A DNA stretch of 41,050 bases from Gelidibacter salicanalis (GTDB lineage: Bacteria > Bacteroidota > Bacteroidia > Flavobacteriales > Flavobacteriaceae): NCBI RefSeq assembly GCF_016469035.1, contig NZ_JAEHJZ010000028.1, positions 36,995-78,044 of the forward strand, in the 5' to 3' direction. This document shows, piece after piece, positions 15,816 to 33,160 of the stretch; positions within the stretch are counted from its first letter, which is position 1; every line of letters begins with the position of its first letter. The translations under genes were made by a program, and so were the position numbers. The notes under the pieces were generated by a model. It did no database searches. It had not been told where the DNA came from and worked only from the letters and a program-made list of their open reading frames with translations.

Positions 15816-15871
15816 GATTTAAGAATTACGATTTCTTTAATCTAAAATCGTAAATCAACAATCGTAAATCT
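15816..15871. repeat. Opposed 7-bp repeats between rpoA and rplQ
   Basis: Eight 7-nt units in one register on the + strand: GATT/GAAT at the start of units 15816, 15823 and 15830, then AATC at fixed offset in the units starting 15837, 15844, 15851, 15858 and 15865. The two halves are reverse complementary in pattern, so the RNA could fold back. The array begins 1 nt from the rpoA stop codon. Confidence 0.7.
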
Positions 15872-15872
15872 A

Positions 15873-16865
15873 CTAGTCTTTATCTAATTTATATTTACTT
15901 AAATCCATTCCGAAGTTCAAACCTTTAACATTGACTAGTTCTTCTAGCTCCGTTAATGATTTTTTACCGAAGTTTCTGAATTTCATTAAATCATTTTTGT
16001 TGAAAGATACTAAGTCTCCTAAAGTATCAACTTCTGCAGCTTTTAAACAGTTCAATGCACGTACAGAAAGATCCATATCAACCAATTTGGTTTTCAATAG
16101 CTGTCTCATATGAAGGGATTCTTCATCATAAGTTTCAGTTTGTGCAATTTCATCAGCTTCTAAAGTGATACGCTCATCAGAGAATAACATAAAGTGATGG
16201 ATTAAAATTTTGGCCGCTTCAGTTAAGGCATCCTTAGGATTGATTGATCCGTCCGTTTGGATTTCAAAAACCAATTTCTCGTAATCTGTCTTTTGCTCAA
16301 CACGGAAGTTTTCAATCCCGTATTTCACATTTTTTATTGGTGTATAAATTGAATCTGTAAAGATGGTTCCAATTGGTGCAGAAGCTTTTTTATTCTCTTC
16401 AGCAGGAACATAGCCTCTACCTTTTTCAATAGTCAACTCCATATTAATGCTTACTTTGGAATCTAAATTACAGATGACCAAATCTTTGTTAAGCACTTGA
16501 AAGCCTGAAATGAATTTCTGGAAATCACCAGCAGTAATTTGATCTTGTCCTGAAATGGAAATAGTAACAGTTTCGTTATCAATTTCGTCTATTTGACGCT
16601 TAAAGTTAACTTGCTTTAAGTTCAAAATTATTTCAGTAACATCTTCAACTACACCCGCAATTGTGGAAAACTCATGATCTACACCTTCAATTCTAACAGA
16701 TGTAATAGCAAATCCTTCCAAAGAAGACAACAAAACCCTTCTTAAAGCATTACCTACAGTTAATCCATAGCCAGGTTCAAGAGGTCTAAACTCAAACTTC
16801 CCTTCAAAAGGAGTTGAATCGATCATGATGACTTTGTCGGGCTTTTGAAAATTTAAAATTGCCAT
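15873..16865 (-). CDS. rpoA: DNA-directed RNA polymerase alpha subunit
   Basis: Assembles the RNA polymerase core as a dimer and contacts promoter DNA and regulators. 330 residues. The N-terminal domain shows [20 protein letters not shown] and the later [11 protein letters not shown]; the C-terminal domain (about 245-330) has [20 protein letters not shown] and [14 protein letters not shown], the helix-hairpin-helix that binds UP elements. Complete. Co-transcribed with rpsD (95 nt upstream) from the promoter at 17672-17700. Confidence 0.98.
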
Positions 16866-16960
16866 ATTATTCTTCGTTTTAATTGTTATTTAGTTGCGCG
16901 GTATATAAGTTTGAAGAAGACTAATAAACCCTTTGGCTAAACACCAATATGATTAATTTA

Positions 16961-17566
16961 TTATTTAGAGTATAATTCAACGATAAATTGTTCGTTGATA
17001 TTTTCTGGAATTTGAACTCTTTCAGGTACAGCAACAAAAGTTCCTTGTTTAGTTTCATTGTTCCATGTCATCCACTCATAAACAGTGCTAGAGTTAGATA
17101 ATGAATTTTGAATAATATCAAGAGATTTAGATTTCTCTCTTACGGCAACAACATCGCCTGCTTTTAATTGGTAAGAAGGAATGTTTACGAATTCTCCGTT
17201 AACAGTGATGTGTCTGTGAGAAACCAATTGACGTGCTCCACTACGTGAAGGTGATAGGCCTAATCTGAAAACCACGTTATCTAAACGAGACTCACATAAT
17301 TGTAGCAAAATTTCACCAGTAATACCACGTGCAGCAGTTGCTTTTTTAAACATGTTTCTGAATTGCTTTTCTAAAATACCGTAAGTATATTTAGCTTTTT
17401 GCTTTTCCATTAACTGGAGGGAGTATTCAGATTTTTTTCCACGACGCTTGTTTGCACCATGTTGACCAGGAGGATAGTTTCTTTTTTCGAAAGCTTTATC
17501 ATCTCCGAAAATAGCTTCACCGAATTTTCGGGCTATTTTAGTTTTAGGACCAGTATATCTTGCCAT
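16961..17566 (-). CDS. rpsD: 30S ribosomal protein S4 (uS4)
   Basis: Primary 16S rRNA-binding protein that starts 30S assembly; in several phyla it also represses its own operon. 201 residues, with the S4 RNA-binding motif in the centre ([34 protein letters not shown]). The N-terminus lacks the zinc-binding Cys cluster of some S4 forms. It is first gene of the unit rpsD-rpoA-rplQ, with its own promoter and a 106-nt leader holding a candidate regulatory stem (17584-17639). Confidence 0.98.
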
Positions 17567-17583
17567 TTCTTAAATTAATTTAT

Positions 17584-17639
17584 GAGAGTGTCTATGAATT
17601 AAGGTCTTAAACTTATCCTTCGATAGACAGTGATCTCTC
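17584..17639 (-). promoter_or_regulatory. Candidate structured leader of rpsD, possible S4 autoregulation site
   Basis: In the rpsD 5' leader the reverse strand reads GAGAG, a 5-nt bulge, TGTCTAT, a 27-nt loop, then ATAGACA and CTCTC. This gives 5 + 7 perfect pairs interrupted by a one-sided bulge. It lies 18 nt before the start codon. The shape is typical of r-protein leaders; binding by S4 is an inference. Confidence 0.5.
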
Positions 17640-17671
17640 GTTAATACTTGTTTGTTATTTTTTTCAATTTG

Positions 17672-17700
17672 CAAATTTACACATAAAAAACTAATATCAA
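17672..17700 (-). promoter_or_regulatory. Promoter of rpsD-rpoA-rplQ
   Basis: On the reverse strand, -33 TTG (17700-17698), an 18-nt spacer and -7 TAAATTTG (17679-17672), a full match to the Bacteroidota housekeeping promoter. The -33 element lies within the hairpin of the preceding terminator. Confidence 0.75.
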
Positions 17701-17725
17701 CCATTTAAAACAGTTGATATTAGTT
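17685..17725 (-). terminator. Internal terminator after rpsK
   Basis: On the reverse strand a perfect 13-bp stem AACTAATATCAAC/GTTGATATTAGTT with an 11-nt loop is followed by T-rich sequence. It starts 16 nt after the rpsK stop and divides the spc-alpha genes from rpsD-rpoA-rplQ. Confidence 0.8.
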
Positions 17726-17741
17726 AGAGATACGTTATAAA

Positions 17742-18131
17742 CTATACACGTCTACGTTTTGGAGGGCGACATCCATTATGTGGCAATGGGGTAACATCAA
17801 TAATTTCTGTTACTTCAATACCTGCATTATGAATAGAACGGATAGCAGATTCTCTACCATTACCTGGTCCTTTTACATAAACTTTTACTTTCTTCAGTCC
17901 AGCTTCTCTTGCTACTGCTGCAGCATCTTCAGCGGCCATTTGGGCAGCGTATGGAGTATTCTTTTTAGAACCTCTAAAGCCCATCTTACCAGCTGATGAC
18001 CAAGAAACGACATCACCTTTTTTGTTTGTCAAAGAAATAATGATGTTGTTGAATGAAGCGGCAATGTGTGCCTCTCCGTTTGCTTCAACAATAACCTTAC
18101 GTTTTTTAACCTTTGTACTTGCCTTTGCCAT
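17742..18131 (-). CDS. rpsK: 30S ribosomal protein S11 (uS11)
   Basis: Binds 16S rRNA at the platform and helps select the correct tRNA. 129 residues with the conserved [28 protein letters not shown] core and the basic C-terminal [18 protein letters not shown]. Follows rpsM after a 101-nt spacer of 7-bp repeats and is followed by a terminator, so it closes the main transcript. Confidence 0.98.
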
Positions 18132-18140
18132 ATTTTTTTT

Positions 18141-18232
18141 TAGTTTTTAGTATTAGTTTATAGTCGCTAGAATCCTAAACCGTTAAATTTCAAACAGATT
18201 CTTTCCAACGTCTAAAGACTAAAGACTATTTT
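18141..18232. repeat. Opposed 7-bp repeats between rpsM and rpsK
   Basis: On the + strand TAG recurs at 18141, 18148, 18154, 18161 and 18168 (spacing 7, 6, 7, 7), and CTA recurs at 18212, 18219 and 18226 (spacing 7). The CTA side ends against the rpsM stop codon. The two sides point toward each other, with about 37 nt of plain sequence between. Confidence 0.6.
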
Positions 18233-18607
18233 TTATTTAGTTGCCTTTTTCTTGTTAGCAACAGTTTTTCTTCTACCTTTTCTAGTTCTAGAGTTGTTCT
18301 TAGTGCGTTGACCTCTTAAAGGAAGTCCAGCTCTATGACGAATACCTCTGTAACATCCAATATCCATTAAACGCTTGATGTTTATTTGGATTTCTGAACG
18401 CAACTCACCTTCAATAGTAAAGACACCTACAGCTTCACGAATATTACTGATTTCGTCATCTGTCCAATCCTGAACTTTTGTGTTTTCATCAACTTTAGCT
18501 TGTGCTAAAATTTCTTTTGCTCTGCTTGCACCTATCCCGTAGATGTAAGTTAAAGAGATTACTCCTCTTTTCTGTTTTGGTATATCAACACCTGCAATTC
18601 TTGCCAT
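18233..18607 (-). CDS. rpsM: 30S ribosomal protein S13 (uS13)
   Basis: Sits in the head of the 30S subunit and contacts P-site tRNA and the 50S subunit. 124 residues: [26 protein letters not shown] at the N-terminus, the helix-two-turn-helix region, and the basic tail [28 protein letters not shown]. It starts 2 nt after the rpmJ stop. Confidence 0.98.
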
Positions 18608-18609
18608 AA

Positions 18610-18726
18610 TTAACCTTGTCTTTGTTTGAATCTAGGATTCTTTTTGTTAATGACGTAAAGTCTTCCTTTTCGACGTACTAACTTACAATCAGCACTCCTT
18701 TTTTTAACTGATGCTCTTACTTTCAT
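18610..18726 (-). CDS. rpmJ: 50S ribosomal protein L36 (bL36), zinc-free form
   Basis: A 38-codon gene. The protein begins [19 protein letters not shown] and ends in NPRFKQRQG, as L36 does. The zinc-binding set of typical L36 (Cys11, Cys14, Cys27, His33) is reduced to one relic Cys14; the others read Ser, Asn and Phe. It is therefore the C-minus type, independent of zinc. Located between infA and rpsM as in most bacteria. Its start codon lies in the first copy of a 50-bp repeat (18721-18831). Confidence 0.95.
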
Positions 18727-18745
18727 CTGTTCCTGTTATTTATTT

Positions 18746-18775
18746 TTAATTGTCAAATGGAACCTTCGGTTTCAT
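18746..18775 (-). other. 9-codon mini-ORF in the rpmJ leader (copy 2)
   Basis: ATG at 18775, reading MKPKVPFDN then TAA at 18748-18746. The start context AACAG-ATG-AAA is the same as that of rpmJ. Translation is unproven. Confidence 0.4.
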
Positions 18776-18795
18776 CTGTTCCTGTTATTTGGTTT

Positions 18796-18825
18796 TTATT
18801 GGTCAGATGGAACTGTCGGTTTCAT
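18796..18825 (-). other. 9-codon mini-ORF in the rpmJ leader (copy 1)
   Basis: ATG at 18825, reading MKPTVPSDQ then TAA at 18798-18796. Same length and frame as the other copy, with three amino-acid changes. It starts 12 nt after the infA stop codon. Translation is unproven. Confidence 0.4.
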
Positions 18826-18837
18826 CTGTTCTATTTA

Positions 18838-19053
18838 TTAATATCTATAAGTTATTCGAGCCTTAGACAAATCATAAGGGCTCATTTCTAATTTTACTTT
18901 GTCTCCTGGTAACAGTTTAATGTAGTGCATACGCATTTTACCAGAAATATGCGCTGTGACTATGTGTCCATTTTCTAATTCAACACGGAACATCGCATTG
19001 GATAATGCTTCTATAATCGATCCGTCCTGTTCTATTGATGCTTGTTTTGCCAT
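18838..19053 (-). CDS. infA: Translation initiation factor IF-1
   Basis: Binds the A site of the 30S subunit during initiation. 71 residues, a single S1/OB-fold domain ([26 protein letters not shown]..., ending [11 protein letters not shown]), normal length. It starts 7 nt after the secY stop, so is co-transcribed. Downstream lies the unusual repeat that leads into rpmJ. Confidence 0.97.
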
Positions 19054-19060
19054 AATAATA

Positions 19061-20407
19061 TTAAGCTATTGCTTTTCTATTTTTGCCAGTTTTCATTAAG
19101 CCATCATAGTGTTTGTTCAACAAATATGAATTGACTTGTTGCATCGTATCAATTGCAACACCTACCATAATCAATAATGAGGTACCTCCAAAGAACAATG
19201 CCCAACCTTGCTGTACGCCCATCAATTTAACTACAACCGCTGGGAACACAGCAATCAACGCTAAAAATATAGACCCAGGTAAAGTTATTTGAGACATAAT
19301 CTTGTCCAAGTACTCAGAGGTTTCAGTTCCTGGTCTAATACCCGGTATAAAACCACCACTACGTTTTAAATCATCTGCCATTTTATTTGTTGGTACAGTG
19401 ATAGCGGTGTAGAAGTACGTAAAGATAATGATCAATAACGCAAATACAATGTTGTACCAAAGGCCGAAGATGTCGGAGAAGTTAGTTTGTAACCAAACGC
19501 CAACAGCACCTTCACCTAATCCTTTACCCACCAATGTTGGTACAAACATAATTGCCTGAGCAAAAATGATTGGCATAACACCAGAAGCATTTAATTTTAA
19601 AGGTAAAAACTGTCTTGATCCAAATACATTCTTTTCATAACCACCAGAAGCAGTACGGCGCGCATATTGCACAGCAATCTTACGAACACCCATGACCAAC
19701 ATAATTGATAGTAAAATGATAACGAACCAGATGACCAATTCAATAAGCACCATCATCAATCCGCCGTTACCACCACCTTCTAATCTAGAGGCGTAGTTTT
19801 GAACAAATGACGCGGGCATACGAGCAATGATACCTACCATAATCAATAAAGAAATACCGTTACCGATACCTTTATCAGTTATTTTTTCACCCAACCACAT
19901 TGCAAATACAGTACCGGTTACCAAAATAATTACTGAAGACACGTAGAACATGGTTCCTGTACCCAATAAAAATGCCGATGAAGGAATACCTAATGCTGGT
20001 AAACTAGCCAAGTATCCTGGTGCTTGCACCAAACAGATCCCAATAGTTAACCAACGTGTGATTTGATTGATCTTTTTACGTCCGCTTTCCCCATCCTTCT
20101 GTAATTTTTGAAGGTAAGGAATGGCAATACCCATTAATTGAACGACAATTGAAGCCGAAATGTATGGCATGATACCTAAGGCAAATACCGAAGCATTCGC
20201 GAAAGCTCCACCTGTAAAAGCATTAAGAAGTCCTAGAAGACCTTGATCCGTATTACTGGCCAAAGCACCTAACTGACTTGCATCAATACCTGGTAAAACC
20301 ACTTGTGCACCAAAACGATAAACTAAAAGAAGGCCAAGCGTAAGCATGATTCGATCTTTTAGTTCTGTTATTTTCCAAACATTTTTTAAAGTCTCTATAA
20401 ATTTCAT
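19061..20407 (-). CDS. secY: Preprotein translocase subunit SecY
   Basis: Channel protein of the SecYEG translocon in the inner membrane. 448 residues, ten hydrophobic segments. Signatures: [15 protein letters not shown], the GNGISLLI-type motif ([15 protein letters not shown]), and the cytosolic loops needed for SecA and ribosome binding ([14 protein letters not shown]). Preceded by rplO (13 nt) and followed by infA (7 nt), with no adk or map gene between. Confidence 0.98.
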
Positions 20408-20420
20408 TCTCTAAAAGGTC

Positions 20421-20873
20421 TTATAAAGTTACAGCTTCTCCTCCGGCAGCTTCAATAGCAGCTTTTGCTGAAGCGGTAAATTTATGAGCAGTAACTTTTA
20501 ATTTTGATTTCAATTCGCCACGACCTAAGATTTTAACAAGATCATTCTTGTTTACAACCCCTAGTTCTAATAACGTCACAAAATCAACAGTGTCTGTAAT
20601 GATTTGACCATCTACCAATTGTTGTAGTTTATCAAGATTGACACCTTGATATTCTATACGATTGATATTTGTAAATCCAAACTTAGGCACACGTCTTTGA
20701 AGTGGCATTTGACCCCCTTCAAAACCTAATTTCTTAGAATAACCAGAACGAGATTTCTGACCTTTGTGACCCTTTGTTGCAGTACCACCTTTACCAGAAC
20801 CTTGTCCTCTACCTATTCTTTTGCCTTGATTTTTAACTGACCCTTCAGCCGGTTTTAAATTACTTAAATCCAT
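20421..20873 (-). CDS. rplO: 50S ribosomal protein L15 (uL15)
   Basis: Late-assembly 50S protein. 150 residues with the Gly/Arg-rich N-terminus ([25 protein letters not shown]) followed by the globular domain [15 protein letters not shown]. Tight spacing to rpmD (12 nt) and secY (13 nt). Confidence 0.97.
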
Positions 20874-20885
20874 TATTCTGCTGTA

Positions 20886-21068
20886 TTATTTTGTTTCCTC
20901 TACAGAAACTAAATGTTGAACTTTATTAATCATTCCAAGGATACTTGGCGTGTCATCATGCTCAACAACCTGATTCATTTTACGCAAACCTAAAGATTCT
21001 AAAATCCTCTTTTGCGTTTGTGTACGGTTGATAGCACTTTTTACTTTTTTTACTTTAATCTTTGCCAT
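20886..21068 (-). CDS. rpmD: 50S ribosomal protein L30 (uL30)
   Basis: 60 residues, matching the short bacterial L30 (IKVKKVKSAINRTQTQKRILESLGLRKMNQVVEHDD). It lies after rpsE with 106 nt between, filled by a 7-bp repeat array, and 12 nt before rplO. Confidence 0.95.
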   Translation of the reverse strand: MAKIKVKKVKSAINRTQTQKRILESLGLRKMNQVVEHDDTPSILGMINKVQHLVSVEETK

Positions 21069-21076
21069 TTTTTTAT

Positions 21077-21174
21077 AGTATTAAGTAGTTAGTATTAGGT
21101 ATTAAGAATTTAGCGCAAAGTGCATTGAAAATCACTTGTTACTTTGTACTTAATACTTCGTACTCCATACTCAT
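21077..21174. repeat. Fourteen 7-bp units in perfect register between rpsE and rpmD
   Basis: On the + strand AGTA-type units start at 21077, 21084, 21091, 21098, 21105, 21112 and 21119, one neutral unit at 21126, then CACT/TACT units at 21133, 21140, 21147, 21154, 21161 and 21168. All 98 nt keep the 7-nt phase, and the array ends exactly at the rpsE stop codon (21175). The halves are inverted relative to each other. Confidence 0.8.
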
Positions 21175-21699
21175 TTATCCGTTAAATACTTTTGTAAGTG
21201 AAATACCTCTTTCTCTAGCTATAGATCCTGCATCTCTTAATTGCAACAAAGCATCAAAAGTCGCTTTAACTACGTTATGAGGATTTGAAGAGCCTTGAGA
21301 TTTTGATAATACATCATGTACACCTACTGCCTCTAAAACCGTTCTTACAGCACCACCAGCAATAACTCCAGTACCTTCAGAAGCTGGAATGATATTTACT
21401 CTTGCACCACCATACTTACCTTTTTGTTCGTGTGGTAATGTTTTGTTTTTGATAGGAATTCTCACTAAATTTTTCTTAGCGTCTTCAATGCCTTTTGCAA
21501 TTGCCGTAGCCACATCTTTAGATTTCCCTAAACCATGTCCTACAACTCCAGCTTCATCTCCAACTACTACAATAGCAGAAAAACCGAATGCTCTACCACC
21601 TTTAGTAACTTTAGTAACTCTCTGTACACCTATAAGATGATCTTTAAGGTCTAACCCACTAGGTTTTACTAATTCTGCGTTTTTATATTTTTGATACAT
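21175..21699 (-). CDS. rpsE: 30S ribosomal protein S5 (uS5)
   Basis: Part of the mRNA entry channel and of decoding fidelity. 174 residues: the S5 double-stranded RNA-binding domain with [28 protein letters not shown], then the C-terminal domain with [23 protein letters not shown]. It starts 6 nt after the rplR stop. Confidence 0.98.
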
Positions 21700-21705
21700 A
21701 ATGTC

Positions 21706-22062
21706 TTAAAATTTTAGTCCTGCTTCTCTAGCACCATCTGCTAATGATTTTACTCTTCCGTGATATTGATACCCACCTCTATCAAAAGAAATAGTTTCAA
21801 CACCAGCTTTCAAAGCTCTTTCTCCTACAGCTTTACCAACTAACGTGGCAATGTCTGTTTTGGTTCCTTTTGCAGAACTAATGTCTTTATCTCTTGAAGA
21901 TGCAGCACTAATAGTATTACCAGTTACATCGTCGATAATTTGAGCATAAATTTCTTTATTGCTTCTAAATACAGCCAAACGAGGTCTTGTCTCTGTTCCA
22001 GAAACAACCTTACGAATCCTGTTTTTTATTCTTAATCTCTTTTGATTTTTTGTCAATGCCAT
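21706..22062 (-). CDS. rplR: 50S ribosomal protein L18 (uL18)
   Basis: Binds 5S rRNA together with L5 and L25. 118 residues, with [20 protein letters not shown] and the C-terminal [26 protein letters not shown] motif. Spaced 10 nt from rplF and 6 nt from rpsE. Confidence 0.98.
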
Positions 22063-22072
22063 AACTATACGA

Positions 22073-22615
22073 TTATGCTGATTTACCTGCTTTTCTTCTT
22101 AATACTTCTCCTACAAACTTAACACCTTTTCCTTTGTATGGTTCAGGTTTTCTATACCCGCGAATCTTCGCTGCCACCTGACCTACCAATTGTTTGTCGT
22201 ATGAAGTTAACTTTATGATTGGATTTTTCCCTTTTTCAGAAATGGTCTCCACTTTAACTTCAGGAGCTACTTCTAAAACAATATTATGAGAAAACCCTAA
22301 AGCTAAATCTAATTTTTGTCCTTGGTTTGAAGCTCTATAACCAACACCAACCAATTCTAATTGCTTGGTCCAGCCTTGAGATACTCCTTCAACCATATTC
22401 TTTACCAATGATCTGTAAAGACCGTGGTTAGTTCTTGCTTCTTTACTGTCTGATGGACGTGCTACTGACACTTCACCATCTTTTACAGTAATTTCAACAC
22501 TTTCAAATTTCTGAGTCAACTCACCCAATTTACCTTTTACAGTAATTACGTTGTCTTTGACGTCTATTGTAACCCCTTCTGGGATTGCTACTGGATTATT
22601 TCCTATTCTTGACAT
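22073..22615 (-). CDS. rplF: 50S ribosomal protein L6 (uL6)
   Basis: Located at the factor-binding site of the 50S subunit. 180 residues, two repeats of the L6 fold; starts [15 protein letters not shown] and ends with the [16 protein letters not shown] signature. Spaced 12 nt from rpsH. Confidence 0.98.
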
Positions 22616-22627
22616 ATCTCTCCTTTT

Positions 22628-23026
22628 TTAGTAAACGTAGCACAATAATTCACCACCAACATTCTCTTTATGCGCTTGCTTTCCAGTCATAACTCCGTGA
22701 GAAGTTGACACAATTGCAATTCCAAGTCCGTTAAGGATTCTTGGCATTTCACTAGAGCTTGCGTATTTACGTAAACCTGGTTTACTTAATCTTTGAATTT
22801 TTCTGATGACAGGCTCTTTAGTCTCTTTATTGTATTTAAGCGCTATTTTGATAGTGCCTTGTACTGAAGAGTCATCAAACTTGTAACTTAAAATATACCC
22901 TTGGTCGAATAATATTTTAGTGATTTCTTTTTTCAGATTTGATGCAGGAATCTCGACAACTCTATGGTTGGCCATTACTGCATTTCTAACTCGTGTTAGA
23001 TAATCTGCGATTGGATCTGTAGTCAT
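22628..23026 (-). CDS. rpsH: 30S ribosomal protein S8 (uS8)
   Basis: Central 16S rRNA-binding protein; in E. coli it represses the spc operon. 132 residues with TDPIADYLTRVRNAVMANH at the start and the conserved LNGLGIAIVSTSHGVMTGKQA near the end. It follows rpsN after 135 nt that hold four hairpins, an unusually long and structured gap for this gene pair. Confidence 0.98.
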   Translation of the reverse strand: MTTDPIADYLTRVRNAVMANHRVVEIPASNLKKEITKILFDQGYILSYKFDDSSVQGTIKIALKYNKETKEPVIRKIQRLSKPGLRKYASSSEMPRILNGLGIAIVSTSHGVMTGKQAHKENVGGELLCYVY

Positions 23027-23040
23027 TTATATTAAATTTC

Positions 23041-23163
23041 GGATATGGTTTTTGGTTCTCCCCAAACCTATATCCAGTTCATACTCTTACTGAGATGCGA
23101 AATTTCGCATCTTTACAACGCGATGAATCGCGTTATATCAGAAACGCAAGGTGTTGCGTTTCT
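23041..23163. repeat. Cluster of four hairpins between rpsN and rpsH
   Basis: Imperfect stem at 23041-23075 (GGATAT/ATATCC outer pairs); perfect palindrome at 23093-23112 (AGATGCGAAA and complement); AACGCGAT/ATCGCGTT at 23117-23134 with a 2-nt loop; AGAAACGCAA/TTGCGTTTCT at 23140-23163 with a 4-nt loop. The last overlaps the rpsN stop codon by 2 nt. Confidence 0.8.
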
Positions 23164-23431
23164 ACCAGGATGCTTTTCTAACTCCTGGGATCAAGCCTTG
23201 GTTTGCCATTTCACGTAACATAACACGAGAGATTCCAAAGATACGTACGTATCCTCTTGGTCTTCCGGTTAATTTACAACGGTTGTGCAAACGCACTGGT
23301 GATGCATTTCTTGGTAACTTTTGTAACGCTTCATAATCTCCAGCTTCTTTCAAAGCCTTACGTTTCTCTGCGTACTTATCTACCATTTTTTGTCTTTTCA
23401 CCTCACGGGCTTTCATTGATTCTTTAGCCAT
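23162..23431 (-). CDS. rpsN: 30S ribosomal protein S14 (uS14), zinc-free form
   Basis: Head protein of the 30S subunit. 89 residues: the long C-minus type, without the CxxC zinc ribbon of the 61-residue form. The core [25 protein letters not shown] is present. It follows rplE at 3 nt. Its TAG stop lies at the edge of a palindromic element. Confidence 0.97.
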
Positions 23432-23434
23432 ATC

Positions 23435-23986
23435 TTAGTTCTTTTGAAAAGGTAAACCTAATTCTGTTAATAGCGATTTTGCTTCTTTATCTGTAGGAGC
23501 CGTTGTGACAAAGGTAATATCCATTCCTGAAATATTGTTAACTTTATCAATATCTATTTCTGGAAAGATAATTTGCTCAACAATACCTAGGTTATAGTTA
23601 CCTCTACCGTCAAAACCTGTAGCTCTGATACCGTTAAAGTCTCTTACACGTGGTAATGCCGATGTTACCAAACGGTCTAGAAACTCATACATTTGCTCAC
23701 CGCGTAATGTAACTCTAGCCCCAATTGGCATTCCTTTACGTAACTTAAACGTTGCGATATCTTTTTTAGATAACGTTGCTACGGCTTTTTGACCAGAAAT
23801 TTTGGTCAACTCATCCACAGCGTGGTCTACTAACTTTTTATCGGCAACTGCAGCACCTACTCCTTTAGATATTACTATCTTTTGAAGTTTAGGAACTTGC
23901 ATTACGTTTTTATATCCGAATTCTTCTGTAAGAGCAGAAACTACTTTGTCCTTGTACTCTTGTTTTAATCTTGGAATATAAGCCAT
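23435..23986 (-). CDS. rplE: 50S ribosomal protein L5 (uL5)
   Basis: Binds 5S rRNA and forms a bridge to the 30S head. 183 residues with the [11 protein letters not shown] segment, the [28 protein letters not shown] motif and RDFNGI. Only 2 nt separate it from rplX. Confidence 0.98.
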
Positions 23987-24327: not shown

Positions 24328-24361
24328 GCTGTTGAAACGCAGCGTTCTGCGTTTTTACAGC
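24328..24361. repeat. Nested hairpin at the rplN stop codon
   Basis: Outer arms GCTGT (24328-24332) and ACAGC (24357-24361), inner arms AAACGCAG (24335-24342) and CTGCGTTT (24347-24354), 4-nt loop. The inner stem ends directly against the rplN stop codon at 24355-24357, which sits between the two stems. Confidence 0.75.
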
Positions 24362-24983: not shown

Positions 24984-25001
24984 CTTTCAGCGGAATACAA
25001 A

Positions 25002-25193
25002 TTATTGTACTTCTCTTTTAGTTAATTCGGTTGCAATTCTTGCTACAGAACGTCTCACGTTGCGTAATTGAATCGGATTTTCTAAAGGTGAGATTGCATG
25101 TGCCATATTCAGGTCAGCATAACTCTTTTTAGTTTCACCTAACTTATCTTGTAATTCAGCTGTAGAAAGCTGTTTAATTTCTGATTGCTTCAT
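25002..25193 (-). CDS. rpmC: 50S ribosomal protein L29 (uL29)
   Basis: Small helical protein at the exit tunnel, near the docking site for trigger factor and SRP. 63 residues (MKQSEIKQLSTAELQDKLGE..., RNVRRSVARIATELTKR). Spaced 12 nt from rplP. Confidence 0.96.
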   Translation of the reverse strand: MKQSEIKQLSTAELQDKLGETKKSYADLNMAHAISPLENPIQLRNVRRSVARIATELTKREVQ

Positions 25194-25205
25194 AATATCT
25201 ATGTA

Positions 25206-25631
25206 TTAAGCTTCGTAATCTCTAGCGATTAAGAATTTTGTTTTTACAGGTAATTTTTGAGCTGCCAAACGTAATGCTTCTTTTGCAACGTCCAATGGCA
25301 CGCCACCTACTTCAAACATAATTCTACCTGGCTTCACTACAGCTACCCAATATTCTACAGCACCTTTACCTTTACCCATACGTACTTCAAGAGGCTTTTT
25401 GGTGATAGGCTTGTCTGGAAATATTTTGATCCAAAGTTGCCCTTCTCTTTTCATAAAACGTGTAGCTGCAATACGAGCTGCCTCAATTTGACGAGATGTT
25501 AAAAACATTCCCGTTTCGTGTACCGATTTTATACCGAACATTCCATTTGAAAGTTCATGTCCTCTACCGGAATTTCCTTTCATGCGGCCTTTTTGCTGCT
25601 TACGGAATTTTGTCTTTCTAGGTTGTAACAT
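25206..25631 (-). CDS. rplP: 50S ribosomal protein L16 (uL16)
   Basis: Near the A site and the peptidyl-transferase centre, late in assembly. 141 residues with [37 protein letters not shown] and [18 protein letters not shown]. Spaced 19 nt from rpsC. Confidence 0.98.
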
Positions 25632-25650
25632 TTTTCTTTAACTTTAAAAA

Positions 25651-26382
25651 TTACTTTCTACGACGGGGTTTATTATTCCCACCACGTCTTGGCGCATCAG
25701 ATCCTCCTTTGCCGCCTTGTTTTTTGGATAATCCAACAAGCGGTGAAAGATCTCTCTTACCATACACTTCACCTTTCATGATCCACACCTTAACACCCAA
25801 TCTACCATAAGTAGTATGTGCCTCAACTAAAGCATAGTCAATGTCAGCTCTAAACGTCGATAATGGAATTCTTCCTTCTTTGTAGTGTTCAGAACGTGCC
25901 ATTTCAGCACCGTTTAAACGCCCACTAATTTGAATCTTGATCCCTTCAGCATTCATTCGCATTGTTGCAGCAATTGCCATTTTGATGGCACGTCTGTAAG
26001 AAATACGATTCTCGATTTGACGAGCAACGCTAGATGCTACTAAAAAGGCATCCAATTCTGGTCTCTTGATCTCGAAGATGTTCAATTGAACTTCCTTATC
26101 TGTAATTTTCTTAAGCTCTTCTTTTAACTTGTCTACCTCTTGACCACCTTTCCCGATAATGATACCAGGTCTTGCAGTTGTGATAGTAACGGTTACAAGT
26201 TTAAGCGTACGCTCAATAATTACTCTTGACACACTTGCTTTAGATAAACGAGCGTGAACATATTTTCTAATCTTATCGTCTTCAGCAAGTTTATCTCCAT
26301 AATCATTGCCACCGTACCAGTTAGATTCCCATCCTCTGATAATTCCTAAACGATTTCCGATTGGATTTGTCTTTTGTCCCAT
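25651..26382 (-). CDS. rpsC: 30S ribosomal protein S3 (uS3)
   Basis: mRNA entry-channel protein with helicase function. 243 residues: N-terminal [24 protein letters not shown] domain with [19 protein letters not shown], then the S3 C-terminal domain ([32 protein letters not shown]). The C-terminal tail is Gly/Arg/Lys-rich. Spaced 8 nt from rplV. Confidence 0.98.
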
Positions 26383-26390
26383 ATCTCTAT

Positions 26391-26798
26391 TTAAGCTTGT
26401 GTGTTATTGATTGCTCCAATAACCACGGTAACGTGGTTAGAACGTTTTCTAATTCTGTGTGCACGACCTTGAGGTGCTGGACGTAATCTTTTCAACATTG
26501 CGCCACCATCTACTCTGATCTCTTTAACGAACAAGCCTGCATCTTCAATGCTTGCATCTTCGTTTTTTGCTTGCCAATTGGCAATTGCTGAAAGCACCAA
26601 CTTCTCTAAACGACGAGATGCTTCTTTAGGGCTAAATCTTAAGATATTTAGAGCCATTTCAGCTTTTTGTCCCCTAACCAAATCCGCAACTAAGCGCATC
26701 TTTCTCGGTGATGTAGGACAGTTATTAAGCTTTGCAAAAGCGATGTGCTTTTTTTCTTCCTTAATAGCGTCTGCCATTTGTTTTTTACGACTTCCCAT
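26391..26798 (-). CDS. rplV: 50S ribosomal protein L22 (uL22)
   Basis: Lines the exit tunnel; its beta-hairpin contains the macrolide-sensing loop. 135 residues, with [25 protein letters not shown] and the loop region [27 protein letters not shown]. The 20-residue N-terminal extension ([22 protein letters not shown]) is usual in Bacteroidota. Spaced 8 nt from rpsS. Confidence 0.97.
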
Positions 26799-26806
26799 AG
26801 CTCTAC

Positions 26807-27085
26807 TTATTTTTTACCTTTATTTTTAGCACCGGCATGACCTCTAAAAGATCGTGTTGGTGAAAATTCTCCTAATTTGTGACCTACCATATTCTCAGTT
26901 ACAAAAACTGGTACAAATTGACGACCATTGTGAACAGCTATAGTTTGTCCAACAAAATCCGGGGAAATCATAGAGGCTCTAGACCACGTTTTGATAACCG
27001 ATTTTTTGTTTGAAGCTACATTCTCTTCAACTTTTTTACTCAATTTATAATGGATGTAAGGTCCTTTTTTTAATGAACGTGCCAT
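26807..27085 (-). CDS. rpsS: 30S ribosomal protein S19 (uS19)
   Basis: 30S head protein forming a complex with S13. 92 residues: [64 protein letters not shown]. Spaced 10 nt from rplB. Confidence 0.98.
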
Positions 27086-27095
27086 ATTATCTCAA

Positions 27096-27923
27096 TTATT
27101 TCTTTCTACGTTCTACAATATATTTATTACTCGCTTTTGTTTTAGAACGGGTTCTATAACCTTTAGCAGGTATACCATTTCTAGAACGTGGATGACCACC
27201 AGAAGACTTACCTTCTCCACCACCCATTGGATGATCGACAGGGTTCATAACTACAGGTCTTGTACGTGGACGTCTACCCAACCATCTTGATCTACCTGCT
27301 TTACCAGATACAGTCAATTGATGATCAGAGTTAGATACAGCTCCAATAGTTGCCATACATTCTACAAGTATTAAACGTGTTTCACCAGAAGGTAATTTAA
27401 TAGATGCGAATTTTCCATCTCTCGCCATTAACTGTGCGAATGAACCAGCACTTCTTGCCATAATTGCTCCTTGTCCAGGACGCAATTCAATACATGAAAT
27501 GATAGTACCAAGAGGAACATACTTTAGTAGCATTGCATTTCCAATTTCTGGAGCAACACCTTCAGCACCTGAAACTACAGTTTGCCCAACTTGTAAACCA
27601 TTTTGAGCAATCATGTAACGTTTCTCACCATCTTGATAATTCAAAAGAGCGATAAATGCTGTTCTGTTTGGATCGTACTCGATAGACGCCACTTCTGCTG
27701 GAATTCCAGTTTTGTTACGTTTGAAATCGATAACACGATACTTTCTTTTATGACCACCACCAATATAGCGCATGGTCATTTTTCCTTGACTGTTTCTACC
27801 ACCAGATCTCTTGTTCGGAACGAGTAAACTCTTTTCCGGCTTATCAGTAGTAATGGCGTCAAATCCATTAACTACTCTAAATCGCTGACCTGCTGTGATC
27901 GGTTTTAATTTTCTTACTGACAT
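27096..27923 (-). CDS. rplB: 50S ribosomal protein L2 (uL2)
   Basis: Primary 23S rRNA-binding protein near the peptidyl-transferase centre. 275 residues with the RNA-binding domain ([14 protein letters not shown]-type [14 protein letters not shown]) and the C-terminal [28 protein letters not shown], which includes the conserved His of the active-site region. Spaced 10 nt from rplW. Confidence 0.98.
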
Positions 27924-27933
27924 TTGTCTTTAA

Positions 27934-28224
27934 TTACATGTTAGTGTATAAATCAATTGATTCACCTTCCGCCAGTTGTACAATTGCTTTTTTAACAGCA
28001 TTTGTTTTACCATTCTGAATACCTGTCTTTGTGTGACGGGTTCTTCTGTCTGGACGGACATTTATAGTACGAACTTTTTCAACGGAAACGCCATAAGCAG
28101 CTTCCACCGCTTTTTTTATTTCAACCTTGTTCGCCTTCGTATTCACTTGGAAGCTATAGCAGTTGTTTAACTCGCTATTAGCTGTCGCTTTTTCAGTGAT
28201 TATAGGTTTAATTAAGATGCTCAT
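27934..28224 (-). CDS. rplW: 50S ribosomal protein L23 (uL23)
   Basis: Rim of the exit tunnel; docking site for trigger factor and SRP. 96 residues (IIKPIITEKATANSE-like start, FQVNTKANKVEIKKAVEAAYGVSVEKVRTINV). Spaced 6 nt from rplD. Confidence 0.97.
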   Translation of the reverse strand: MSILIKPIITEKATANSELNNCYSFQVNTKANKVEIKKAVEAAYGVSVEKVRTINVRPDRRTRHTKTGIQNGKTNAVKKAIVQLAEGESIDLYTNM

Positions 28225-28230
28225 GTTTCC

Positions 28231-28860
28231 TTATTTACTTAAATTCGATTCAATTCCTTCTAAAGAGCTCTCTAAAAGGACTAATTTATTTGCGTTTAAA
28301 ATCTTGTAAGTACTTAATTCTGAGTTCATTATAACATCAGAACCTTTTAAATTACGTGAGGACAAATATACATTATTATTTGAGGCACCCAACACAAACA
28401 AAGATTTTTTATTCTCAACACCCAACGCTTTCAATACGTTAGTGAAGTTTTTGGTCTTTGGAGAATCAAAATTAAAATCTTCCATTACCACAATCGCGCT
28501 ATCATTAGCTTTCATTGTTAAGGCTGATTTACGTGCTAAACGCTTAAGGCCTTTGTTCAATTTAAAGCTATAGTTTCTTGGTCTTGGACCAAACATACGT
28601 CCACCACCTTTAAATACACCAGACTTGATAGATCCTGCACGTGCTGTACCAGTACCTTTTTGTTTCTTGATCTTACGTGTACTTCCAGAGATTTCTGCTC
28701 TTTCCTTAGCCTTATGCGTTCCTTGACGTTGGTTAGCAAGATATTGCTTAACATCTAAGTAAACTGCATGGTTATTAGGCTCAATAGCAAACACATCTGC
28801 AGAAAGTTCAACCTCTCTACCTGTGCTTTTTCCGTTTATATCTACAACTGCTACTTTCAT
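28231..28860 (-). CDS. rplD: 50S ribosomal protein L4 (uL4)
   Basis: Exit-tunnel protein; in E. coli it represses the S10 operon through the leader of its own mRNA. 209 residues, with the extended tunnel loop ([35 protein letters not shown]) and [19 protein letters not shown]. Its ATG overlaps the rplC stop codon by 1 nt (TAATG), so translation is coupled. Confidence 0.97.
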
Positions 28861-29477
28861 TATTTCTGAATAATTACATAAGAGTTTTTATGACCAGGAA
28901 CACATCCTTTAACCACCAATAAGTTCTTTTCAGGAACTACTTTGTAAACTCTTAAATTTTCAACATTCACTCTCTCGCCACCCATTCTTCCGGCCATCTT
29001 CATTCCTTTAAATACTCTTGCAGGATACGAAGCCGCACCAATAGAACCAGGAGCTCTTAAACGGTTATGTTGACCATGCGTAGCTTGACCAACTCCACCA
29101 AAACCATGACGCTTTACAACCCCTTGGAATCCTTTTCCTTTAGATGTACCAGCAATATCAACAAATTCACCTTCAATGAAATGTTCTACTGTAATAGCAT
29201 CACCTAATTTGTAATCTTCTCCAAATCCTTGGAATTCAACGACTTTTCTCTTAACAGAAGTACCGGCTTTTTTGGCATGACCTGCCTCAGCTTTAGTGGA
29301 ACTTTTCTCTGTCTTGTCATCGAAACCAAGTTGAAGAGCACTATACCCGTCAACCTCTTCGGTTCTGACTTGGGTAACGATACATGGACCTGCTTCAATA
29401 ACGGTACACGGAATGTTTTTTCCGTTCTCGTCGTAGATACTGGTCATACCGATTTTTTTTCCAATTAACCCAGACAT
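28860..29477 (-). CDS. rplC: 50S ribosomal protein L3 (uL3)
   Basis: 23S rRNA-binding protein that starts 50S assembly. 205 residues from the ATG at 29477 ([30 protein letters not shown]), with [19 protein letters not shown]. The frame is open to a TTG at 29504, but those nine codons run into a hairpin, so I keep the ATG. Preceded by a structured 302-nt spacer after rpsJ. Confidence 0.97.
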
Positions 29478-29498
29478 AAATATTAATTTGTTTGTTAT

Positions 29499-29597
29499 GG
29501 ACAATTCACGACTTGTCCGCTTTTTTATATATAGGTAATTCGTGACTTACCTATGTATTTAAAAATATTCAGGGCCGAAAATACTTCAGCCCTGAAT
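29499..29597 (-). promoter_or_regulatory. Candidate structured leader before rplC: three hairpins
   Basis: On the reverse strand, 5' to 3': ATTCAGGGC/GCCCTGAAT (29597-29567), ATAGGTAA/TTACCTAT with loop GTCACGAA (29554-29531), and GGACAA/TTGTCC with loop GTCGTGAA (29518-29499), the last 21 nt before the rplC ATG. The two 8-nt loops contain TCACGA and TCGTGA, which are mutual reverse complements. Confidence 0.55.
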
Positions 29598-29640
29598 GTA
29601 TTTTTACCGTTTTTCCCTCGCACGCAGCTCGGGACATGTT

Positions 29641-29780
29641 GAGACACATAATTATGTGTCTCTAAATTTTTTGTATAGATGCAATATTATGCGTTTCTGC
29701 AATTTGTACAGACGCAAAATTTTGCGTCTCTATGGCAATATTTTGCCTCCATTATTCGGAGACGCAATATTTTGCGTCTC
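29641..29780. repeat. Array of palindromic elements after rpsJ
   Basis: Five consecutive palindromes: 29641-29662 (GAGACACATAA and complement, perfect), 29678-29698 (imperfect), 29710-29729 (AGACGCAAAA and complement, perfect), 29734-29747 (GGCAA/TTGCC), 29759-29780 (GAGACGCAA/TTGCGTCTC). The last shares one base with the rpsJ stop codon. Confidence 0.85.
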
Positions 29781-30085
29781 TATACCTTAATCTCTACTTC
29801 TACACCACTTGGCAACTCCAATTTCATCAAAGCATCAATTGTTTTTGATGAAGAACTATAGATGTCCAAAAGTCTTTTGTAAGAACTTAATTGGAACTGC
29901 TCTCTAGCTTTCTTGTTAACGTGTGGAGAACGTAAAACCGTAAAGATTTTTTTATTTGTTGGTAAAGGAATTGGCCCAGTTACAACTGCGCCCGTACTTT
30001 TTACCGTTTTAACAATCTTATCAGCAGATTTGTCCACCAACATGTGATCGTAAGATTTTAGTTTTATTCTGATTTTTTGACTCAT
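29780..30085 (-). CDS. rpsJ: 30S ribosomal protein S10 (uS10)
   Basis: 30S head protein and, as NusE, a factor in transcription antitermination. 101 residues ([33 protein letters not shown]..., [28 protein letters not shown]). Spaced 12 nt from fusA. Its TAG stop is at the border of a palindromic repeat array. Confidence 0.98.
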
Positions 30086-30097
30086 TTTCTTGAAAAT

Positions 30098-32224
30098 TTA
30101 AGCTTCGACGCCTTTAGCTGCTTTAATCACTTCTTCAGATATATTAGAAGGAGTTTCAGCATAATGTGAAAATTCCATTGTTGATGTTGCACGACCTGAA
30201 GACAATGTTCTTAATGTGGTAACATATCCAAACATTTCAGATAATGGCACAGTTGCTTTTACAGTTTTTGCACCAGCTCGGTCACCCATATCAGTCATTT
30301 GTCCTCTTCTTCGGTTCAAATCGCCAACTATATCACCCATGTTTTCTTCTGGTGTAATCACCTCGATCTTCATGATAGGCTCCATTATTACGGCTTTAGC
30401 AGCTTTAGCAGCATTTCTAAATCCGATTTTTGCAGCCAACTCAAATGATAGTTGATCAGAATCCACATCGTGGTAAGATCCGTCAGTAAGTGTCACTTTC
30501 ATGGCATCTACTTCATAACCTGCCAATGGACCATTGACCATTGCCATTTTAAATCCTTTTTCAATTGAAGGGATAAATTCTTTAGGAACGTTTCCACCTT
30601 TAATAGCAGAAACAAATTCTAAACCTGTTTTACCTTCTTCAGCTGGCTCCAAAGTAAATTGGATATCAGCAAATTTACCACGACCACCAGATTGTTTTTT
30701 GTAAACTTCTCTATGTTGTGCCGGTCTAGTAATTGCCTCTTTATATTCTACTTGTGGTGCACCTTGATTTACTTCAACTTTAAATTCACGACGTAAACGG
30801 TCTACAATGATGTCTAAGTGAAGCTCACCCATTCCAGAAATAATAGTCTGTCCTGAAGATTCATCTGTACGTGCTGTAAAGGTAGGATCCTCTTCAGCTA
30901 ATTTTGAAAGCGCCATCCCTAATTTGTCAACATCAGCTTTTGTTTTAGGTTCTACCGCGATACCAATAACGGGATCAGGGAAATTCATTGATTCTAACAC
31001 AATTGGATGCTTCTCATCAGACATGGTATCACCAGTCTTAATATCCTTAAACCCTACGGCAGCTCCAATATCTCCTGCTTCGATAAAATCAAGAGCAATT
31101 TGTTTGTTGGCATGCATTTGGTAGATACGAGAAATACGCTCTTTCTTACCTGAACGGTTGTTCAAGATATAAGAACCTGCATCTAAACGACCAGAATACG
31201 CTCTAAAAAATGCTAAACGACCAACAAAAGGATCGGTAGCAATTTTAAACGCTAAAGCTGAAAATGGTTCATTAACACTTGGTTTACGTCTTTCCTCTTT
31301 TTCTGTATCAGGATTGATACCGATAACGCTTTCTCTATCCATAGGGGATGGTAAGTAGCGACAAACAGCATCCAATAAAAACTGAACGCCCTTATTTTTA
31401 AATGAAGATCCACATACCATAGGAATGATTGCCATATCCATTACAGCAGCTCTAAGTGCAGCATGCACTTCATCTTCTGTAATAGAGTTTTCATCTTCCA
31501 TGAATTTCTCTAATAGATTCTCATCGTAGCTGGCTACCTCTTCAATCAATAAAGCTCTAAACTCACGAACTTCATCTTTCATCTCTTCAGGGATAGCTAC
31601 AACGTCAAAGGTTGCTCCGAAGTTATCATCATGCCATACAATAGCTCTGTTTTTAACTAAGTCAACGATTCCTTTAAAGTCACTCTCATCACCAATAGGT
31701 AAAACGATTGGCACTGCATTAGAGCCTAACATTTCTTTTACCTGTTTGTTAACTTCTAAAAAGTTAGACCCTTGACGGTCCATTTTGTTAACAAACCCGA
31801 TTCTTGGAACTTTATAATTATCAGCAAGCCTCCAGTTAGTTTCAGATTGTGGCTCAACACCATCAACTGCACTAAATAAGAATACTAAACCATCCAATAC
31901 ACGTAAAGAACGATTTACCTCTACGGTAAAATCAACGTGACCTGGAGTATCAATAATATTGAAATGGTAAGACTGAGCCTCTTCGGTCGGTTCACCATTC
32001 TCTTTTGGAAACACCCAATCACAAGTCGTAGCTGCAGAAGTAATTGTAATACCTCTTTCTGCTTCTTGTTCCATCCAGTCCATTGTTGAAGCACCATCAT
32101 GTACTTCACCAATTTTATGAGAAACGCCCGTATAAAAAAGAATACGTTCAGTTGTAGTTGTTTTCCCAGCATCAATATGTGCTGCAATACCTATATTTCT
32201 TGTAAGTAATAAATCTCTTGCCAT
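30098..32224 (-). CDS. fusA: Elongation factor G
   Basis: GTPase that drives translocation and, with RRF, ribosome recycling. 708 residues, five domains. G1 AHIDAGKT at 15-22, switch II DTPGH at 92-96, then NKMD near 146. Domain IV is present with the decoding-centre loop, ending in the SDIRSxTxG-like region and a C-terminal [12 protein letters not shown]. Gene order rpsG-fusA-rpsJ lacks tuf, as is usual in Bacteroidota. Spaced 4 nt from rpsG. Confidence 0.98.
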
Positions 32225-32228
32225 ATAT

Positions 32229-32705
32229 TTAGAATCTAAAGTGTGAGAACGCTTTATTAGCTTCTGCCATTTTATGAGTATCTAAACGCTTTTTAACCGC
32301 TGCACCTTCTTCTTTTGCCGCTGCTAAAATTTCAGCAGCCAATTTTGCTGGCATAGATTTCTCATTTCTTTTGCGTGAGTAACTAATCAACCATTTCATA
32401 GCTGTAGATACCTTACGGTCTGGACGAATTTGCATTGGGATTTGAAATGTTGCACCACCAACACGACGACTACGTACTTCTACGTGAGGCATTACGTTAG
32501 ATAAAGCATCTTTCCATGTTTCCAAGGCTGTTTTTTCTTCATCAGTTTTCTTTGCTTCTACAATGTCAATGGCATCATAAAATACTTTAAAAGCTACTGA
32601 CTTTTTACCATCCCACATCATCATGTTAACGAAACGAGTTACTAACTGGTCGTTAAAACGTGGATCTGGTAAAAGCGGTCTCTTTTTTGCTGCTCTTTTT
32701 CTCAT
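32229..32705 (-). CDS. rpsG: 30S ribosomal protein S7 (uS7)
   Basis: Primary 16S rRNA 3' domain binder; in E. coli it represses the str operon. 158 residues: [64 protein letters not shown]. Lies 80 nt after rpsL with a palindrome at the rpsL end of the gap. Confidence 0.98.
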
Positions 32706-32765
32706 GTCTTCTTTGTTAATTTTAAATCATTAAAATTAATGTTGCAATAAATTGCGCCATTAATC

Positions 32766-32785
32766 AGACGTAACATGTTGCGTCT
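32766..32785. repeat. Palindromic element at the rpsL stop codon
   Basis: AGACGTAACA followed by TGTTGCGTCT: 20 nt, palindromic except for one T-G pair, abutting the rpsL stop codon at 32786. Same CGTCT/AGACG ends as the elements after rpsJ. Confidence 0.75.
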
Positions 32786-33160
32786 CTACTTTTTAGGGCG
32801 TTTTGTTCCGTATTTAGATCTACGTTGCGTTCTACCTGTAACACCTGCGGTATCTAAGGCACCACGTACAATGTGATATCTAACTCCTGGCAAATCTTTT
32901 ACCCTTCCACCTCTAACCAATACTATCGAGTGCTCCTGTAGATTGTGACCTTCGCCGCCAATGTATGCATTAACCTCGTTTCCGTTTGTCAAACGAACCC
33001 TTGCTACCTTACGCATTGCTGAGTTAGGTTTCTTAGGTGTCGTCGTATAAACACGAGTACACACACCACGTCTTTGTGGACACGAATCAAGGGCAACCGA
33101 TTTACTCTTCTTGGTTATTTTGGTTCTTCCTTTTCGTACTAATTGTGAAATTGTTGGCAT
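32786..33160 (-). CDS. rpsL: 30S ribosomal protein S12 (uS12)
   Basis: Decoding-centre protein. 124 residues. TTPKKPNSA with Lys43 and [10 protein letters not shown] with Lys88 and Pro91 are the wild-type residues of the streptomycin site, so no resistance allele is visible. First gene of the str-S10-spc transcript, 45 nt downstream of a consensus promoter. Confidence 0.98.

Follow-up and report, generated by a model that had tools for sequence, protein, structure and literature searches.

The window analysed here is a stretch of 41,050 nucleotides from the genome of Gelidibacter salicanalis (contig C198, positions 36995-78044; the assembly comprises 5.16 Mb in 682 contigs). It contains a cluster of ribosomal genes that runs from rpsL to rplQ on the minus strand, and several spacers between these genes hold repeats. 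Ten spacers in the cluster are longer than 50 nt (51-302 nt), and eight of them carry repeats of three unrelated kinds: short palindromes, inverted arrays of seven-base units (heptad arrays), and a repeat between infA and rpmJ. We propose, with moderate confidence, that two hairpin-forming kinds gather directly behind stop codons, namely palindromes resembling repetitive extragenic palindromic (REP) sequences and locally born heptad arrays. An earlier inspection of the window (the sequence-only reading) had noted repeats on the stop side of genes and had ascribed them to a target preference or to a function behind stops; its observation is partly confirmed and its interpretation partly supported.

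The comparison draws on ten genomes of the genus (G000-G009, where G000 is the window's own genome) and, for the ribosomal cluster, on 80 named clusters, of which 75-80 were scored per spacer, together with G008, G009 and Gelidibacter algens (L002), the closest named genome by rpsC (99%). For genome-scale counts, genes were predicted with a home-made hexamer caller over 1.65 Mb from G000 and 0.76 Mb from G008. At a threshold of 12 the caller missed three of 18 checked ribosomal genes; at a threshold of 5 it found rpmD and infA, missed rpmJ and placed the rpsJ start too late. Since rpmJ is uncalled, the infA-rpmJ spacer lies outside these counts. All features of the cluster described below lie on the minus strand.

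Palindromes begin at the base after the stop codons of rpsL (TAG), rpsJ (TAG), rpsN (TAG) and rplN (TAA), the four places named in the sequence-only reading. The palindrome between rpsL and rpsG, AGACGCAACATGTTACGTCT (32766-32789), has one stem mismatch and a GTAG head, the TAG of which is the rpsL stop. In G008, the same spacer is 21 nt long, follows a TAA stop and lacks the palindrome; in G. algens it holds a heptad array, so that two unrelated repeat types stand behind the same rpsL stop. Between rpsJ and rplC there is a group of four to five units, AGACGCAA..TTGCGTCT (29642-29782; RNA fold z -8.1), of which the first touches the stop. The interval from the rpsJ stop to a conserved rplC leader is taken up by GACGCAA palindromes in the window and G. 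algens and by other hairpins in G008 and G009, with TAG in all four. The rplN-rplX palindrome AAACGCAGAACGCTGCGTTT (24335-24357) is shared with G. algens, the rplN stop being TAA in both carriers, and is absent from G008 and G009; the spacer measures 51 nt in the window, 50 nt in G. algens and 8 nt (as scored) in the other two. The rpsN-rpsH palindromes (23093-23164), of which the first touches the stop, are absent from G008 and G009, where the stop is TAA, and present in G. algens. According to RNA fold prediction, the stem pairs the rpsN stop and some of the bases of the rpsJ stop. Each of the four cluster palindromes is absent from some congeners.

Elsewhere in the genome these palindromes are few. 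The pattern RAYGCAA..TTGCRTY occurs at 12 places in 5.16 Mb, three of them within the ribosomal cluster, and its reversed control at none. The palindromes are short, within the 20-40 bp range of GTAG-tagged REPs, but they are not high-copy and are therefore called REP-like and not filed as members of a REP family. Their heads read GTAG at rpsL, rpsN and two copies on contig C392, and ATAG, TTAG, GCAG or GTAA elsewhere; the copy on C242 has none. With the exception of this last copy, those away from stops, including two inside a frame resembling a REP-associated tyrosine transposase (RAYT), also bear GTAG or ATAG heads. Contig C392 has three copies inside or next to a broken RAYT-like frame, and a Pfam scan of the two pieces of this gene gave no transposase match. 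Eight RAYT-like loci were examined in six congeners (G001, G002, G003, G006, G007 and G008), and at three of them the GTAGAGACGC palindrome stands in the open frame (one in G007, two in G002). The NCBIfam model NF047646 (REP-associated tyrosine transposase) scores 62.8 and 35.4 bits against two RAYT-like proteins (E 3e-17 and 9e-9), below its cut-off of 80, and Pfam Y1_Tnp matches one protein of three at 19.5 bits, under its cut-off of 23. The RAYT-like genes (L264-L269, L272 and L274) have seemingly been enlarged by in-frame palindromes and by glutamine or other simple repeats.

Heptad arrays lie behind the stops of rpsE, rpsM and rpoA, in agreement with the sequence-only reading. By a relaxed lag-7 scan their arms begin 1 nt behind the rpsE stop, overlap the rpsM stop and begin 9 nt behind the rpoA stop, the last distance being 0 nt by a lag-7/lag-14 scan. 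The rpsE-rpmD array (21069-21174) is inverted, with arms at 21132-21173 and 21077-21113. Its spacer is 106 nt long in the window and does not exceed 14 nt in any of the 78 scored relatives, G. algens included; among the ten genomes of the genus, the array is present in G000, G007 and G008 and the other seven have an 11-nt spacer. The rpoA-rplQ array (15800-15872; RNA fold z -3.8), also inverted, follows a TAG stop, and G008, G009 and G. algens have arrays of different sequence at this place, likewise behind TAG. The rpsM-rpsK element (18132-18232) consists of heptad-like arms flanking a conserved core, GAATCTG..TAGGATTC, in a spacer that exceeds 50 nt in 31 of 75 relatives. This array is an old element, as the core letters GAATCTG or (TA)GGATTC recur in 19 of 32 such spacers of 60-130 nt. 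Compensatory changes were seen in one of its 23 pairs (15 of the 19 core-bearing sequences). One relative, L008, holds a second copy of the core before rpsM, which may have moved or been duplicated.

Most of the other repeats of the cluster are young, since their presence or absence differs between the window, G008, G009, G. algens and the named clusters. The sequence-only reading had nearly every cluster spacer above 50 nt filled with repeats. The two exceptions that it named, rpsK-rpsD and rpsD-rpoA, do lack repeats, but in rpsJ-rplC, rpsN-rpsH and rpoA-rplQ the repeats occupy only a part of the spacer, and the part on the start side is conserved across genera. Where G008, G009 or G. algens lack a repeat, the empty spacer is 8-21 nt long or a conserved leader starts within a few nucleotides of the stop. 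For this reason, stop adjacency inside the cluster is nearly forced and is weak evidence when taken alone.

Stronger evidence comes from the genome scale, where arrays of the genus have a non-random placement, a fixed orientation, a distinct usage of the adjoining stops and a presence that varies between species. In the 1.65 Mb of G000, periodicity is found in 37 spacers at lag 7 and in 40 at lag 14, compared to 1-10 spacers at lags 4-6, 8-13 and 15. Placement was evaluated by pooling G000 and G008, with one span per spacer, spacer and array length held, and 20,000 simulations. In tandem spacers, 27 of 50 arrays begin within 10 nt of the stop, whereas 10.2 are expected and none of the simulations reached as high a number; on the other side, arrays reach to 10 nt or less from the start in 8 of the 50 spacers, against 10.2 expected. 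When both flanking genes are high-scoring, the counts are 18 of 31 on the stop side (6.2 expected) and 4 on the start side (6.3 expected). Each genome shows the excess separately: 16 of 34 tandem arrays in G000 against 6.5 expected (this set includes one run of N, a letter ignored in later counts), and 7 of 17 in G008 against 3.0 (p 0.01). In convergent spacers, 9 of 12 arrays are near a stop (5.1 expected, p 0.002). Counted per segment, with several per spacer and hence not independent, convergent spacers give 11 of 16 against 3.7, and divergent spacers hold 3 segments against 15.9 expected by bases (p 7e-5). Stop anchoring is seen for spans up to 60 nt (9 of 23, 2.8 expected), of 61-120 nt (10 of 12, 4.4 expected) and longer (8 of 15, 3.0 expected), and only one array of 43 lies mostly within coding DNA. 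The distances of the heptad arrays thus depart from the random expectation, with spacer length allowed for, that the sequence-only reading had named as its refutation.

The arrays are also oriented. Over the 35 nt that follow the stop, G exceeds C at 37 of 41 array ends (p 1e-7), whereas 465 control ends average -0.3. The segments of tandem spacers change in composition along the spacer: G-rich ones make up 35 of 40 in its first 40%, and C exceeds G in 14 of 19 in its last 40%. The stops themselves are shifted away from TAA: those of G000 that have an array no more than 12 nt away are TAG in 14 cases, TGA in 6 and TAA in 6, compared to 855 TAA among 1212 stops overall (70.5%; p 6e-7), and those of G008 are TGA in 9, TAG in 5 and TAA in 2, compared to 403 TAA among 563 (p 1e-6). 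In ribosomal clusters of other genera, array-side stops are TAA in 8 of 8 cases (12 of 13 with the window and G. algens included) and in 9 of 9, in sets that overlap; TAG is therefore no requirement for heptads. A gene-matched stop shift was not found in the ribosomal clusters (1 of 13 non-TAA, 0.35 expected). The same stop triplet is found again 7 nt downstream at 6, and 14 nt downstream at 8, of 41 ends, while lags 6, 8, 13 and 15 give 0 or 1 and lag 23 also gives 6; the stop is therefore at times one unit of the array. At C1:61257, C100:24372 and C325:108889 the array encloses the stop, and one C-terminus in G008 runs into an array. Nevertheless, arrays do not as a general rule create stops by truncating genes, a possibility that we reject because the last codons align without gaps in 12 of 15 array-bearing orthologue pairs (176 of 208 other pairs).

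Arrays come and go between close species. In 181 orthologous spacers of G000 and G008, arrays are present in both genomes in 8, in G000 only in 5 and in G008 only in 1. About half of the eight shared arrays differ in unit sequence, others have the same unit in altered number, and the rpsE array is near-identical. The unit types were read by eye; there are at least half a dozen, some of them recurring, which disfavours a single mobile heptad element.

Based on these findings, the two repeat kinds would reach the stop side by different routes. The palindromes may work like GTAG-tagged REPs, that is, as short insertions for which RAYT-like transposases of the genus may provide the mobility. Upon landing at a gene end, the palindrome's own (G)TAG head could turn into the stop codon. 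A position behind the last codon would be tolerated, but not one within codons or within the leader of the following gene. The comparison supports the head as a fitting source of the stop at rpsL and rpsN: palindrome-free congeners carry TAA at these places (G008 at rpsL, G008 and G009 at rpsN), so that TAG arrived together with the element or later, and the element may have brought it. The heptad arrays, on the other hand, would be born locally as changeable, inverted structures that start where translation ends and grow downstream, presumably by slippage or by hairpin copying, and purifying selection would clear them from coding and promoter DNA. The data support the view that neither repeat type is admitted to such DNA. 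Anchoring may be due to the ribosome-free, G-rich transcript immediately behind the stop, and the polarity, with a G-rich arm after the stop and a C-rich arm before the next start, might spare that start from G-rich pairing. One repeat type, the palindrome, sometimes seems to bring the stop along, and the heptads have a fixed orientation. A more specific version of heptad birth, in which the G-rich transcript pairs back with DNA, repeated slippage writes oriented heptads, and TAA gives way to TAG or TGA once the array extends to the stop, is doubtful at present; if it is true, translation termination would be a mutational hotspot for repeats.

Several observations weigh against the proposal of two kinds of stop-side repeats. 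At rpsE, the junction is ambiguous and the old stop may sit at the right end of the array. The convergent excess shrinks to 3 of 6 (1.5 expected, p 0.11) when both genes are high-scoring. Outside the genus, 79 ribosomal loci hold 26 tandem segments; 6 of these have their beginning no more than 10 nt from the stop (4.4 expected, p 0.23), and 20 have their end equally close to a start (4.4 expected). The start-side group consists mostly of two features shared by descent, the right arm of the rpsM-rpsK element and a conserved AT-rich leader before rplC. What is demonstrated is therefore anchoring in the genus, not in the family. Sense arms contain 235 stop triplets compared to 212 in column-permuted arrays, a slight excess (p 0.03), and stop identity has changed at 7 of 15 array ends compared to 51 of 208 others (p 0.07). 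As for the palindromes, there are only the 12 copies described above, and seven of eight Y1_Tnp loci showed no GTAG/GGAG hairpin having a perfect 8-bp stem. The rpsJ stop is also TAG in G008 and G009, which lack the window palindrome; G. algens has the rpsN palindrome behind TAA, and rplN has TAA in both carriers.

The excess of TAG beside palindromes, which the sequence-only reading had suggested as a check, is weak and depends on how the stops are chosen. Among six palindrome-touched stops chosen by eye (rpsL, rpsJ, rpsN, rplN, C392:669 and C100:20963), five are TAG (p 0.001 against 18.8%). A fixed rule, which demands a perfect 8-bp stem touching the stop and no T tail, gives 4 of 7 (p 0.03), and with one mismatch allowed the count is 15 of 62 (p 0.19), the baseline for the rule being 377 TAG among 1977 stops. 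In a broader count of hairpins near stops without a T tail, TAG makes up 4 of 11.

A further counter-example is the third kind of repeat in the cluster. The infA-rpmJ insertion (18727-18825) is composed of units of 50 and 49 bp, each starting with ATGAAACCG and ending with AACAGGAACAG, and a nine-codon open reading frame, read by eye, opens in each. The site is empty in G008 and G009. The spacer of G008 reads TAAATAGAACAG and leads directly into ATG, and the window has 99 extra bases exactly between AACAG and the ATG of rpmJ. As judged from this empty site, the repeat is tied to a start codon and does not follow the stop-side rule. It had been taken in the sequence-only reading for a repeat at the infA stop, and its position contradicts the claim that repeats always lie at the 3' side of a gene.

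The best-surviving alternative, still less probable than our proposal, is that placement is purely permissive: repeats would arise or insert anywhere and survive behind stops since promoters, leaders and coding DNA are constrained, with no preference for stops as such. It is a serious rival, consistent with the depletion of arrays in divergent spacers, with the near absence of arrays from coding DNA, with the conserved leaders that hold the start side of the rplC, rpsH and rplQ spacers, and with the short empty spacers of the cluster, which force adjacency. However, when the 15 nt before starts are reserved, the expectation for tandem arrays in G000 rises only to 7.7, compared to the 16 of 34 observed, and arrays also pile up at stops in convergent spacers, which have no start to avoid, though the convergent sample is small.

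Selection for function, the other half of the earlier interpretation, is unlikely. According to this explanation, a hairpin or back-up stops would guard the 3' end of the messenger RNA, halt read-through or separate the translation of neighbours. In 30 of 41 arrays, 63 nt of the sense arm are enough to close every frame, compared to 10 of 41 for the antisense arm and 44-45% of the 465 controls, and the arrays adjoin TAG and TGA stops. In addition, all eight cluster spacers that were folded have a predicted RNA energy below the shuffle mean (z -2.4 to -8.6), and the rpsM-rpsK core is common to many genera. Against this explanation, arrays that close species share differ in the sequence of the unit or in its number of copies, seven of ten congeners lack the rpsE array, other insertions are gained and lost among the four genomes compared, and the stop excess over column-permuted arrays is small. 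Finally, a mobile element with a stop codon (TAG) as its target site is improbable and is disfavoured for the palindromes in particular: the TAG stops chosen by eye or by the fixed rule and the TAG at the empty rpsJ sites point towards it, but the empty rpsL and rpsN sites are TAA, copies away from stops also bear GTAG or ATAG heads, and the many heptad unit types are unlike copies of a single element, so that the earlier suggestion of TAG as a target is only weakly supported.

Next to the repeats, several spacers contain conserved leaders. Before rplC (29546-29636), there is a conserved two-hairpin RNA, TGTCCC..GGGAAAAACGG, followed by a terminator-like CAGGG..CCCTG with a T run. ATGTCC is present in 50 of 79 spacers, and compensatory changes are found in 7 of 16 pairs (21 aligned sequences). 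No Rfam match was obtained in the window at E 1 or in four relatives at the gathering score; the element looks like an attenuator-type ribosomal leader. Three other conserved elements also lack an Rfam match in the window: one with CGCGCAAC in 32 of 77 rpsD-rpoA spacers (16866-16960), a hairpin TTTGCTC..GCAAGAT before rplQ (15738-15800; 50 and 51 of 76 spacers), and a hairpin GGTTY..AAAACC before rpsH (23027-23092; 71 of 79 spacers). The rpsK-rpsD spacer contains the S4-Flavobacteria ribosomal leader RF03141 (17590-17628), which is unrelated to the repeats and may account for the length of this repeat-free spacer.

Other repeats were seen outside the cluster. A second palindrome type, TAG followed by AGACAGATGATTATCTGTCT, touches a TAG stop at C100:20963 in G000 and at C1:332296 in G008. 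Another palindrome, GCCCGTACCGAAAAGG..CGTTCGGGC, occurs at 11 places in the 1.65 Mb of G000 (C1, C2, C325 and C198, including window positions 40975-41001), ten of them in tandem spacers and one near a contig end. Behind rlmB, on the plus strand (40975-41031), the CCCGCCCGAACG palindrome (40975-41001) is followed by a heptad run (40999-41031); the run begins 43 nt from the rlmB stop (40953-40955) and makes no contact with it, contrary to the sequence-only reading. At 1465-1497, a period-12 repeat, TAATTTTTTCAG, lies inside the called start of the gene at 814-1551 (weak MutT match), the true start of which is therefore probably downstream.

The palindromes are closest to the GTAG-tagged REPs, which are mostly located downstream of genes and often supply the TAG stop (Di Nocera et al. 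2013, PMC3733652). As far as the part of that survey used here goes, both are palindromes of 20 nt located downstream of genes, and they may also share a frequent (G)TAG head, the use of its TAG as stop, and an association with RAYTs, in that RAYT-like genes of the genus carry the palindrome. The differences are the 12 copies, the ATAG, TTAG, GCAG and GTAA heads, and the palindromes within RAYT-like coding sequence. In the same part of the survey, GTAG repeats are listed for Proteobacteria, Cyanobacteria, Chloroflexi and the Planctomycetes-Verrucomicrobia-Chlamydiae (PVC) group, and CGTC repeats for Bacteroidetes. With the palindromes described here, the range of REP-like behaviour would come to include a Bacteroidetes genus as well as ribosomal operons.

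In the introductions of two papers, heptamers are described as the favoured long repeat unit of many bacterial genomes (PMC4692102, PMC4679880). The GGGNATC heptamers of Xanthomonas and Nostoc lie in sense orientation less than 50 bp behind stops and in antisense orientation before starts, and are rare between divergent genes (Rehm et al. 2015, PMC4692102). The arrays of Gelidibacter share with them the seven-base unit, the strand geometry, the inverted pairs and some overlap with the stop; within the portion of Rehm et al. drawn on here, they differ in having many units (by eye), few with G runs, in place of a single quadruplex-capable one, and in the shift of stop-codon usage, which was not met there. 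The TAACTGA heptamers are likewise intergenic, occur in ribosomal operons and are also found in five Bacteroidetes; their forward units close all three frames, and in the main genome, according to the sections cited, they lie mostly upstream of starts (MacGregor 2015, PMC4679880). In contrast, the present arrays lie mostly behind stops, are not enriched on the start side and have many units, TAACTGA being found in few of them (e.g., C651:151823). Among the matches listed for the Flavobacteriaceae literature (open-access titles and abstract openings), there was no paper on heptad arrays behind stops or on RAYT palindromes. What is added to the known heptamer geometry is the presence of many units in one genus, their gain and change at fixed places, an anchoring at stops that is suggested by convergent spacers as well, and the reduced use of TAA. 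Arrays that have a fixed polarity, are tied to stops and differ between close species offer a way to test how such arrays arise and are maintained.

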